From Armatimonadota bacterium (GTDB lineage: Bacteria > Sysuimicrobiota > Sysuimicrobiia > Sysuimicrobiales > Kaftiobacteriaceae), in assembly GCA_031459765.1 (NCBI GenBank), contig JAVKHY010000012.1, positions 1 to 64,000 of the forward strand: a stretch of DNA of 64,000 nucleotides, in the 5' to 3' direction. Under the pieces are notes generated by a model, which did no database searches, was not told where the DNA came from, and saw only the letters and a list, made by a program, of their open reading frames with translations. The translations under genes and the position numbers were made by a program. Positions 61,351 through 64,000 of the stretch are shown here, in pieces (within the stretch, counting starts at the first letter, position 1; each line of letters begins with the position of its first letter).

Positions 61351-61824
61351 GTGCAGAGCCTTGAGCAGTGGGCCGAGGAGTGGCGGCAGACCAGGCGCCT
61401 GACCTACGACCTGCTGGCCGCCCTTCCCTACGCCGTGCTGAACTTCTCTCCCCATCCCGACTTCGGGACCTTCGCCCGCCAGATCCGCCACATGGGGGAC
61501 ATCCAGGCCTGCTACATCATGGGCCTGCAGACCGAGAAGATGGATTTCGGAGCCCGGCCGCGCCAGCGCACCCTGGAACAATCGCGAGAGCATCTTGAGG
61601 GCTACCTCCGCAGCCTCGACGCCCAGCTGGAGGAGGTGCTGCGCGGGATCTCCGGCGCGTCGCCGGGCCGGTCCATTGCCTGGGACGGGGAAGCGGTCCC
61701 GGTGCTCCGGCACCTAATGCGGCTGCTCCAACACGAAACGCTGCACCACGGCATGCTGGCCCTCTACGCGAAGATCGCCGACCTCCCCCTCCCGCCCAGC
61801 TGGGGGATCTGGGCCCTCGAATAG
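61351..61824 (+). CDS. DinB-family protein
   Basis: 157 residues from GTG 61351 (VQSLEQWAEEWRQTRRLT), the position where homologues start; the frame also opens at GTG 61255, overlapping the previous gene. DinB-type bundle: ALPYAVLNFSPHPDFGTFARQIRHMGDI (first His), and the pair LLQHETLHHGMLALYA (His...His). This makes the metal-binding triad of the DinB/YfiT fold. Second DinB protein of the window. Biochemical role unknown. Confidence 0.82.
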   Translation: MQSLEQWAEEWRQTRRLTYDLLAALPYAVLNFSPHPDFGTFARQIRHMGDIQACYIMGLQTEKMDFGARPRQRTLEQSREHLEGYLRSLDAQLEEVLRGISGASPGRSIAWDGEAVPVLRHLMRLLQHETLHHGMLALYAKIADLPLPPSWGIWALE

Positions 61825-61893
61825 CCGGTTATCCCTCACAATCTCCGAAACATCCGGCCCTCTTCGCCTTGACGGCGCGCTCAGGATGTGGCA

Positions 61894-61932
61894 GATTGGT
61901 GATTGGTCTGTTGTCTGACCAATGGACCAATC
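61894..61932. promoter_or_regulatory. Four-half-site operator upstream of the FadR-type regulator
   Basis: Half-sites GATTGGT (61894-61900), ATTGGTC (61902-61908), GACCAAT (61917-61923) and GACCAATC (61925-61932). The inner pair is a perfect 7-bp dyad around 8 bases, and the outer pair repeats it outside. The unit TGGTC...GACCA is the known FadR/GntR-type half-site style. It ends 19 bases before the probable start of the regulator gene, so it is a strong autoregulation candidate. Confidence 0.65.
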
Positions 61933-61951
61933 CTGACCCGGAGGCTCAGGA

Positions 61952-62683
61952 ATCTCCACCACCGACGCGTCGACAGTCATCAGCGACCTTGAGCCGGTCC
62001 GGCGGACCAAGGTCTATGAGGAAGTGGCCGACCGGATCCGCCGGCTCATCGTCGAGGGCCGGCTGCGGGCGGGCGACAAGCTGCCCCCGGAGCGCGAGCT
62101 GGCCGAGCGGTTTGGGGTCAGTCGGACCTCGGTCCGCGACGCCATCCGGGTGCTGGAACTGATTGGCCTGCTCGAACCCCGCCAGGGCGAGGGCACCGTG
62201 GTCCGGGAACTGACCCCCGATGCGCTCACCCAGCCGCTGGCTTCGATTCTGATTCACAACCGGGCGCTGCTCGCCGAGCTGCTGGAAGTGCGCAAGATGT
62301 TCGAGCCCCCGCTGGCCGCGCGGGCCGCCGTGCTGGCCCGTCCCGAGGACGTGGCCCGGCTGGAGGAAATCTACGGACGGCAGGAGACGAAGGTGCGCGC
62401 CGGCGAGGTGGCCATCGCCGAGGATTCGGAGTTCCACTACGCCATCGCCACCATGGCGCGCAACCGGGTCGCCCTCAAAGTCGTGGACGTCTTGATGGAC
62501 CTCCTCCAGGAGAGCCGGCAGCGCTCGCTCCAGGTGCCGGGGCGGATACAGCGCTCCCTGGCCGGCCACCGGCGGATCCTGGACGCCATCGCCCGGCGGG
62601 ATCCCCGAGCCGCCGAACGCGCGATGCAGCAGCACCTGGCCGAGATCGAGCACGTCCTCCTTACGTCACAGCCGGAGGGCTGA
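61952..62683 (+). CDS. FadR-type GntR transcriptional regulator (non-canonical start)
   Basis: About 243 residues. The winged helix needs RRTKVYEEVADRIRRLIVEGRL at its N-terminus, but the first canonical start, GTG 62024, falls inside that helix (the V of EEV). The frame is open back to 61937 with no ATG, GTG or TTG. An ATC at 61952 has CGGAGG 7 bases upstream and is the best start I can find; ATC 61979 is the other candidate. C-terminal FCD-like domain (LLEVRKMFEPPLAARAA, FHYAIATMARNRVALKVV, GHRRILDAI). Lies 2 bases before an oxidoreductase operon and likely controls it. Confidence 0.8.
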   Translation: MSTTDASTVISDLEPVRRTKVYEEVADRIRRLIVEGRLRAGDKLPPERELAERFGVSRTSVRDAIRVLELIGLLEPRQGEGTVVRELTPDALTQPLASILIHNRALLAELLEVRKMFEPPLAARAAVLARPEDVARLEEIYGRQETKVRAGEVAIAEDSEFHYAIATMARNRVALKVVDVLMDLLQESRQRSLQVPGRIQRSLAGHRRILDAIARRDPRAAERAMQQHLAEIEHVLLTSQPEG

Positions 62684-62685
62684 CC

Positions 62686-63888
62686 ATGGGACGCCTCTTC
62701 GCGGTGGAGATCGTCTACCGCGGGATCTTCCAGAAGAACCTGGCCAAGAACATCAGCCGGGGCGTGGTGCTGGCGGCGCACCACGCCGGGAAGTCCGGCA
62801 TCTCCTTCGGCCGCTACGGGGACAGCCCGGAGCGCAACGGCATCCCGGCCAAGAGTTTCGCCGTGATCGGGAGCGACCCCGAAACCCTCGAGGAGGGCAT
62901 GGCCAAGTACGAGCCCAAGGAGGTCGACATCACCATCGTCCTGGACGACACCCTGCTCAAGGGCGTGGAGTCCTGGGCCTGGTACGGCCTCCAACCCATC
63001 AACCGCCTGCTCCGCCCCGGCGGGACGTTGATCGTCACCTCGATGCACGACGCCGACACCCTCATCCCCATGGCGCACCGGAAGGAGGCGCCCTACCGGC
63101 TGGCCATCCTCAAGGGCACGCCCAGCTTCTCGGGCCTGTGGGTCTACAAGGACGACCACACCGACGTGCGCGTCCTCGGGGCCGTGGCCCGGGTGCTGCC
63201 CGAGCTGTTCACCATCGACGACGTGGAGAAGGCGATCCTGCAGGAGTGGTCGGCGCCGCTCAAGGCGACCTCGGCGCGCAAGGCCTACGAGCGGATCACC
63301 ACCCGGGTGGTGCAGCCCACGGAGGGGAACCCGGAACATCCCTTCGCCTTCCAGCTGCCCAAATGGCATGAGATGCGGGAAGGCATCGCCATCCCGGCCA
63401 TTCCCCGCGGCGCGCCCATCGCCGATCCGGTCAGCGGGCAAAGCGGCGGCTTCCGGCCGGCGCGCAACCCCACCTTCAAGAAGTTCACCACGCGCACGAT
63501 GCGGCCGGTGGTGAACTTCGACACCTGCGTGAAGTGCACGCTGTGCTGGCTGCAGTGTCCGGACTCCTGCTTCGACGTCACGCCCGACGGGTTCTATGAC
63601 GCCAACATGGAGGCCTGCTGCGGCTGCGGCGTCTGCGAGGCGGTCTGCCCGGTGGAGCACTGCGTGACGATGGTCAACGAGACCGCCTTCACCGACAACA
63701 GCAGCCAGTGGGAAGCCTGGAAGAAAGATCGGACCGCCTATGCCGCCTGGCTGCAGGAGAAGATCCGGCACCGGCCCGAGCGGACTCACGGCTTCCGCTT
63801 TCGCGGGCAGTACGAGCAGGAGCTGCCGCCGATGCTGGAGATCGCCGGCGGGGCGGGGCCGGAAGAGCCGTCCGGGGAGGAGGAGTAG
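62686..63888 (+). CDS. 2-oxoacid:ferredoxin oxidoreductase, fused gamma-delta subunits
   Basis: 400 residues, ATG. Residues about 1-195 are the PorG-type gamma subunit (YRGIFQKNLAKNISRGVVLAAHHAGK, DDTLLKGVE). After a linker, residues about 275-330 are a two-cluster ferredoxin delta subunit with CVKCTLCWLQCP and CCGCGVCEAVCP, binding two 4Fe-4S clusters. The enzyme couples oxidation of pyruvate or another 2-oxo acid (with CoA) to ferredoxin reduction; the alpha subunit begins next. Gamma and delta are separate in many organisms. It may be under the FadR-type regulator just upstream. Confidence 0.92.
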   Translation: MGRLFAVEIVYRGIFQKNLAKNISRGVVLAAHHAGKSGISFGRYGDSPERNGIPAKSFAVIGSDPETLEEGMAKYEPKEVDITIVLDDTLLKGVESWAWYGLQPINRLLRPGGTLIVTSMHDADTLIPMAHRKEAPYRLAILKGTPSFSGLWVYKDDHTDVRVLGAVARVLPELFTIDDVEKAILQEWSAPLKATSARKAYERITTRVVQPTEGNPEHPFAFQLPKWHEMREGIAIPAIPRGAPIADPVSGQSGGFRPARNPTFKKFTTRTMRPVVNFDTCVKCTLCWLQCPDSCFDVTPDGFYDANMEACCGCGVCEAVCPVEHCVTMVNETAFTDNSSQWEAWKKDRTAYAAWLQEKIRHRPERTHGFRFRGQYEQELPPMLEIAGGAGPEEPSGEEE

Positions 63889-63891
63889 GCC

Positions 63892-64000
63892 ATGGCCAGA
63901 GCCGTCGAGCAGGTTGCCGCACCGCAGAAGGAAACGGACGCCCTGATCAGCGGCAGCGAGGCGATCGCCGTCGCCTGCAAGCTGGCGGACGTGGACGTCA
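63892..64000 (+). CDS. 2-oxoacid:ferredoxin oxidoreductase alpha subunit, N-terminal fragment
   Basis: Begins at ATG 63892, 3 bases after the gamma-delta stop, and runs off the window end. The visible 36 codons (ARAVEQVAAPQKETDALISG, then SEAIAVACKLADVDV) match the start of PorA, where GSEAIAxAxxxADVDV is a conserved element of the pyruvate-binding subunit. The beta subunit is expected beyond the edge. Confidence 0.75.
   Translation, partial: MARAVEQVAAPQKETDALISGSEAIAVACKLADVDV

Follow-up and report, generated by a model that had tools for sequence, protein, structure and literature searches.

Operators of the FadR subfamily of GntR regulators share the dyad consensus TKGT-3 nt-ACMA, with two or three nucleotides between GT and AC, according to PMC4494728. 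That 2015 paper also describes additional half-sites located 7-12 nt from the centre of GntR dyads, the function of which it leaves open, and associates Arg28, Ser40 and Gly59 of the regulators with G/C at K of TKGT. In E. coli, three dimers of NanR occupy the direct repeats (GGTATA)3, and their cooperativity needs an N-terminal extension of the protein, as reported in PMC8012715. Extra half-sites next to GntR dyads have been described before, and the array analyzed here is an elaborate version of this known type.

This array occupies positions 61894-61932 of the window, that is, of the whole 64,000-nt stretch of an Armatimonadota bacterium contig that was analyzed. It reads GATTGGT GATTGGTC TGTTGTCT GACCAAT G GACCAATC, with half-sites at 61894-61900 (GATTGGT), 61901-61908 (GATTGGTC), 61917-61923 (GACCAAT) and 61925-61932 (GACCAATC), so that the four half-sites within 39 bases noted in a preliminary description of this DNA are borne out by the window sequence and a repeat search. 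That description also placed a perfect inner dyad inside an outer one. Both inverted pairs are indeed perfect, the inner one (ATTGGTC/GACCAAT) with 8 nt and the outer one (GATTGGT/ACCAATC) with 25 nt between the arms, but with centres at 61912.5 and 61913 they are nearly, not exactly, concentric. The repeat search also returns GATTGGT as a direct repeat at a 7-bp step and GACCAAT at an 8-bp step. ATTGGT or ACCAAT words occur nine times in the window, four of them inside the 39 bp of the array, and 200 dinucleotide shuffles of the window gave a maximum of one word per 39 bp in 194 cases and of two in six, which puts four half-sites in 39 bases beyond chance. Single half-sites are common (ATTGGTC is found six times in the window, with a mean of 3.1 in 100 shuffles, ten of which reach six), which speaks for a chance or simple-repeat cluster; against the shuffles, the sequence controls and the cross-genome comparison given below, the probability of such a cluster is negligible.

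The array precedes a gene for a 243-aa GntR regulator (61952..62683, plus strand) that combines a winged-helix GntR domain (Pfam, 82.5 bits) with an FCD domain (103 bits), the domain composition of the FadR subfamily. Its best NCBIfam match is NanR, at 158.1 bits and below the 260-bit cut-off; it also scores below the cut-offs for PdhR (137.5 of 330 bits), LldR (135 of 311) and GlcC (107.6 of 301), and reaches 30.1 bits with the fatty-acid FadR model NF003444, the cut-off of which is 189. The locus shares with the operators of PdhR, LldR, GlcC and FadR a GntR plus FCD protein, an operator before the regulator's own operon, and a core (TTGTCTGACCA here, TGGTCTGACCA in relatives) that fits TKGT-n3-ACMA, and differs from them in a regulator that scores under the curated cut-offs and an operon of the oxalate-oxidoreductase-like type. 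Residues R48, S60 and G79, retained in 73, 71 and 73 of 73 orthologs, correspond by alignment to the Pfam model to the HTH positions 28, 40 and 59 given in PMC4494728. This combination fits G at K of TKGT, i.e. TGGT half-sites. In the FCD domain, D158 (72/73 orthologs), H162 (73/73), H206 (73/73) and H228 (72/73) are kept and form what we take to be the metal site. The low score with the fatty-acid FadR model, together with this Asp/3-His set, makes an acyl-CoA effector look unlikely, and the set itself appears to point to a small carboxylate.

A fused gamma-delta subunit of an oxalate-oxidoreductase-like 2-oxoacid:ferredoxin oxidoreductase (62686..63888, plus strand) starts 2 nt past the regulator stop. 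It is followed by the start of the alpha subunit gene (63892..64000, plus strand), which continues beyond the window, and then by beta, TctC, TctB and TctA. On the 5' side of the array, a small ORF ending at 61824 looks DinB-like by eye; it is without an NCBIfam match at 1e-3. For the alpha subunit, the closest enzyme is oxalate oxidoreductase of Moorella (PDB 5c4i; E 1.2e-100, compared with 1.2e-67 for the pyruvate enzyme), with which it shares Arg31 of the YPIRP motif and Arg109, both kept in 74 of the 74 loci with both motifs aligned, a set that includes our own locus and duplicates. The enzyme of the operon differs from the Moorella enzyme in the loss of Asp116 of the alpha subunit, which is Ala in 73 of these loci and a gap in one, and in a gamma-delta subunit under the NCBIfam cut-off (96.1 of 230). 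The roles of the three residues in the oxalate oxidoreductase alpha subunit are those given in PMC5020499. Since the two arginines are kept and Asp116 is replaced, the substrate is probably a charged oxo acid and perhaps oxalate. The alpha gene, which spans L009:3892-5118 in a copy of the window locus, belongs with its YPIRP motif and its Ala for Asp116 to an oxalate-oxidoreductase-like subfamily. No literature match combined oxalate oxidoreductase with GntR, and with the lineage names joined to oxalate and ferredoxin oxidoreductase none was named among the literature matches listed.

For the comparative analysis, the regulator was searched in 61 genomes (own included), 33 of which had a match at 1e-40, and in 43 genomes of the order, 32 of which had a match at 1e-60, and the gamma-delta protein was searched against public genomes, which yielded 156 loci, of which the 80 best were used. 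Among these best 80, the regulator stands directly upstream of the same enzyme on the same strand in 56; of the remaining 24, four lie on contigs that end too early and 20 have no upstream regulator at E 1e-20, 17 of the latter being titled as Proteobacteria of some kind. From 91 tblastn loci we kept 73 regulator orthologs, after dropping 11 duplicates, skipping two copies of the window (L009/L010) and three paralogs (L002-L004), and leaving out L092 and L099, where the match begins past residue 25. Enough upstream DNA was available for 72 of the 73, L058 with only 36 upstream bases being excluded. In each region 170 upstream bases were examined against 200 shuffles. The taxon labels are record titles, by which the 72 regions are assigned to several phyla; many of them belong to related genomes and are not independent.

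TGGTC or GACCA is present in all 72 regions, compared with a mean of 26.2 and a maximum of 37 regions in the shuffles, and the half-sites total 145, versus 32.4 in the shuffles (sd 5.6, maximum 49). They recur at fixed spacings: TGGTC-n1-GACCA in 21 of the 72 regions (shuffle maximum 1), TGGTC-n9-GACCA in 19 (maximum 1), a direct 8-bp step in nine, including the window (maximum 1), and TGGTC-n8-GACCA in eight, including the window and its congener L011 (maximum 0), while n16 pairs and a 24-bp step reach three regions each. At least one of the first four arrangements is found in 42 of the 72 regions and none in 30. The four ordered arrangements have no occurrence in 73 stretches taken from the coding parts of the same genes or upstream of 20 enzyme loci without the regulator, and the half-site density is 11.9 per kb upstream of the regulator versus 1.8-2.2 per kb in both controls. 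The ordered pairs in 42 of 72 regions, with their absence from the coding and regulator-less controls, argue that the FCD-type GntR regulator has a conserved operator here, and we assign a probability of about 0.85 to the reading of 61894-61932 as the autoregulatory operator of the regulator encoded from 61952. The preliminary description had likewise proposed an operator ahead of a FadR-subfamily regulator that heads a 2-oxoacid:ferredoxin oxidoreductase operon, and regulator, operon and half-sites are conserved together; its operator call is right, while its anatomy is incomplete and partly doubtful.

Aligned on their best core, the relatives present the pattern A-n-TGGTC-n-GACCA-n-T, often with another GACCA-like box eight bases further along. 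The A at -7 (0.59) and the T at +7 (0.73) are symmetric about the core and were not used in choosing it; the alignment values for the core and the third box are partly circular, since core positions were chosen by matching, whereas the spacing counts are not. The n9 spacing is the product of the core and the 8-bp step. Alignment with relatives such as L012-L015 places the proposed core dyad of the window at TTGTCTGACCA (61911-61921, centre 61916), which is aligned with TGGTCTGACCA of the relatives and has a degenerate left half (TTGTC); the window counterpart of the aligned pattern consists of this element and GACCA at 61925-61929. As TTGT-CTG-ACCA, the element has both the boxes and the spacing of the FadR subfamily. 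Around it, TGGTC (61904..61908, plus strand) lies at a 7-bp step 5' of the left half of the core and is also the left arm of the inner dyad, GACCA (61925..61929, minus strand) follows the core half-site at an 8-bp step on its 3' side, and the outermost TGGTG (61897..61901, plus strand, within GATTGGT) adds a further 7-bp step. Centred at 61906 and 61927, 10 nt upstream and 11 nt downstream of 61916, the TGGTC and GACCA boxes fall in the range of the additional half-sites of the 2015 survey by Suvorova et al. Unlike those, they are full-strength rather than weak, lie on both sides of the core and are joined by a further box 17 nt upstream.

The extra boxes vary among the lineages. In many of the Acidobacteria-titled loci one precedes the core by a 7- or 8-bp step, which gives n8 or n9, and the window's genus has extra boxes on both sides of the core. 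In L084, L085 and L087, titled Methylomirabilota/NC10, the core dyad is followed by three further GACCN boxes at 8-bp steps, forming a length series. The upstream tandem TTGGT is specific to the genus, being present in two of 73 regions, the window (L001) and L011. With the latter the array is 87% identical (34/39), only slightly higher than the promoter stretch (30/36) and the regulator gene (534/672, 79%); the preceding gene is identical at 251 of 375 positions and the preceding intergenic stretch at 28 of 69, with 33 gaps. The five differences in the array are at 61894 (G to C), 61909, 61915, 61916 and 61932 (C to T); they leave ATTGGT, ATTGGTC, GACCAAT and GACCAAT unchanged and alter the middle of the core and the ends of the outer pair.

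These comparisons bear on how the array would be occupied. We think it rather probable that one dimer binds the core TTGTCTGACCA, with the flanking half-sites adding affinity or recruiting dimers. The preliminary description favored the inner dyad (61902-61923) within the outer pair (61894-61932), with one dimer on each and cooperation between the two, an arrangement that we regard as unlikely. Both of its inverted pairs are perfect, and its best point is that the four half-site words are kept in the congener, where the core middle (61915, 61916) differs, and that the window belongs to the eight n8 regions, with L011 and for example L074 (ATTGGTC-n8-GACCAAT), and not to the 21 with an exact TGGTC-n1-GACCA. 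However, n1 (21/72) and n9 (19/72) are commoner across the orthologs, the GT and AC of FadR-subfamily dyads are separated by 2-3 nt, the congener has changed bases at both ends of the outer pair, the upstream tandem occurs in just 2 of 73 regions, and the core aligns to TTGTCTGACCA, an element that the preliminary description did not list.

Somewhat less doubtful, though still tentative, is a NanR-like mode, with dimers assembling on direct repeats spaced by 7-8-bp steps and an N-terminal extension mediating their cooperation. Half-sites do lie in 7- and 8-bp direct steps, four GACCN follow one another at 8-bp steps in the three Methylomirabilota/NC10-labelled loci, the best NCBIfam match of the regulator is NanR (158.1 bits), and three dimers on (GGTATA)3 in E. 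coli, as given in PMC8012715, are a precedent; a further likeness is that several half-sites follow the polymerase site in direct steps. On the other hand, the regulator is under the 260-bit NanR cut-off, the residues before LEPV/EPV are poorly conserved, and the NanR repeats are direct only and of another sequence: in place of direct GGTATA repeats the array has a palindromic core and TGGTC/GACCA half-sites.

The best promoter pair in the window is TTGACG-17-CAGATT, the end of which is 13 bases before the core. It was found by a hexamer scan and comprises a putative -35 element at 61869..61874 (TTGACG, TTGACA in many relatives) and a weak putative -10 element at 61892..61897 (CAGATT, 17-nt spacer), both on the plus strand; a stricter consensus scan found no promoter at the window array, missing this -35 element. 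Among the 72 regions, 39 carry a -35-like hexamer at a distance of 30-60 bases upstream of the core; mononucleotide shuffles give a mean of 6.3 and a maximum of 12. A Shine-Dalgarno sequence GGAGG is located at 61940..61944 (plus strand). The operator itself contains a minimal reading frame, ATG-GAC-CAA-TCC-TGA (61922-61936), in frame with the regulator, and L011 has a matching one, ATG-GAC-CAA-TTC-TGA.

Transcribed, the array could also act as RNA, translation then being controlled by a hairpin in the 5' leader (61901-61932) and by base-pairing of the Shine-Dalgarno sequence. Such a leader hairpin was found in six of six folded members of family f1 (L001, L011, L012, L013, L015, L018), the folds having no shuffle control, and in several of these members pairing takes up all or part of the Shine-Dalgarno sequence. 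Yet the half-site letters are conserved and not pairing alone, the exact n1 dyads (TGGTC-n-GACCA) cannot make a hairpin by themselves, the pairing partner of the Shine-Dalgarno sequence varies between relatives, and there is no Rfam match at E 1. On the fold comparison of relatives and the lack of an Rfam match this RNA element was mostly rejected, and we hold it to be very improbable. In the same folds without control, a potential hairpin covers the Shine-Dalgarno sequence (61931..61951, plus strand); it is similar in L011 and L028, with other pairings in L012, L013 and L018, the partner thus differing between relatives.

Returning to the DNA operator with its central core, we infer from these comparisons the placement of the core, binding, repression, the number of dimers and the effector, while the array, its conservation, its co-occurrence with the regulator and the operon order are read directly from the genomes. 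One dimer would bind the core dyad TTGTCTGACCA (61911-61921), and TGGTG at 61897, TGGTC at 61904 and GACCA at 61925, at 7-8-bp steps, would provide more affinity or hold further dimers. Because the array lies between the weak promoter and the Shine-Dalgarno sequence, and the operator presumably over the transcription start, bound repressor would block RNA polymerase. This would silence the regulator and the gamma-delta, alpha and beta genes, and possibly also the TctCBA transporter. Release would follow when the conserved FCD metal site takes up a small carboxylate suited to the enzyme, either oxalate or a 2-oxo acid.

We also searched the genome for further sites. The 2,807,671-base genome has a single ATTGGTC-n(0-20)-GACCAAT, so that the pattern of the preliminary description is not common elsewhere, and the sole genome match to TTGGTC-n(1-20)-GACCAA is this array, with one match for the reversed-pattern control. 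Shorter versions are unspecific, and a wider regulon cannot be argued from them: TKGTCNGACCA is found at four places including the operator (five hits when both strands of one palindrome are counted; reversed-pattern control 4 and 6 hits), TGGTC-n(8-9)-GACCA at 24 places (control 14), and GACCANNNGACCA has nine matches (control 9). One n8 pair, at L009:11017-11034, lies in or at the end of an ORF labelled by eye as permease-like. A second perfect array, TGGTCTGACCAGCAGACCAGCAGACCA, with a core dyad and two 8-bp steps, is located at G000:C18:26821-26847 (L120:4322-4348), 83 bases from a contig end; the other genes of this contig look plasmid- or phage-like by eye, no link to the oxidoreductase pathway was seen, and no downstream gene is readable before the contig end. 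Upstream of seven other GntR-like genes (L002-L008) there is no array and at most two single half-sites. The 200 bases that separate TctC from the beta gene contain none of the words TGGTC, GACCA, TTGGT and ACCAA, and thus no separate transporter operator was found there.

A second unusual trait of the locus concerns the start of the regulator gene, which seems to be the very unusual codon ATC (61952..61954, plus strand), 7 nt after GGAGG, as proposed from the reading frame and the comparison of relatives. In the window there is no in-frame ATG, GTG or TTG between the stop at 61934-61936 and V25 (GTG 62024), and a start at the latter would lose Y22, conserved in 70 of 73 orthologs. An in-frame ATC, ATT or ATA lies 4-10 bases past the strongest Shine-Dalgarno match in 16 of the 18 genomes of families f1 and f7, which were picked after the start-codon pattern was seen, compared with 1 of 108 codons in the other two frames by the same test. 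The 16 are the window, L011-L015 (the L014 anchor was moved by hand six codons for an alignment gap), L018, L022, L023, L025-L027, L029, L032, L033 and L038; the other two, L036 and L037, have GTG.

Canonical alternatives are available in part of this set. No canonical start is found within 50 codons upstream of codon -8 in eight of the 73 orthologs, namely L058, which is merely truncated, and L001, L011, L018, L022, L025, L029 and L032; the L014 row was misframed in this survey and not used there. L029 has a GTG 55 codons upstream, and GTG or TTG stands at codon -5 or -8 in L022, L029 and L032. Canonical options exist also, for instance, in L012-L015 (ATG inside the operator), L026 and L033 (GTG), L023 and L027 (ATG) and L038 (TTG), and ATG, GTG or TTG options are present in the orthologs from the remaining families of the order. 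The six operon genes after the regulator are listed with ATG. Rare AUU and AUC starts are known for infC, and for rnhC in Listeria, with reporter activity in the order ATG > ATA > ATT (PMC13068326), and an AUU start for Borrelia PncA (PMC13398362), so the AUH start is not a new kind. The titles and abstract openings of the literature matches listed contain known rare AUH starts and no case of this regulator. What would be notable is the conservation of AUH in a regulator over two families. At about even odds, the repressor is kept scarce by two lineage-conserved devices, the multi-half-site operator over its own promoter and the AUC/AUU/AUA start; the isoleucine-type start, with its third base drifting across two families, would then be a selected low-yield, perhaps IF3-sensitive, setting of dose and not an annotation accident.

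This work identifies a concrete candidate for the operator, and for the head of the regulon, of an oxalate-oxidoreductase-like enzyme that is widely found and whose bacteria are known here mostly from metagenome-assembled genomes. Operators with a dyad alone and those with one to three extra half-sites besides provide a natural series on the role of the additional half-sites of GntR regulators. If confirmed, the AUH start would show, across a whole lineage, the dose of a repressor being set by the choice of start codon.
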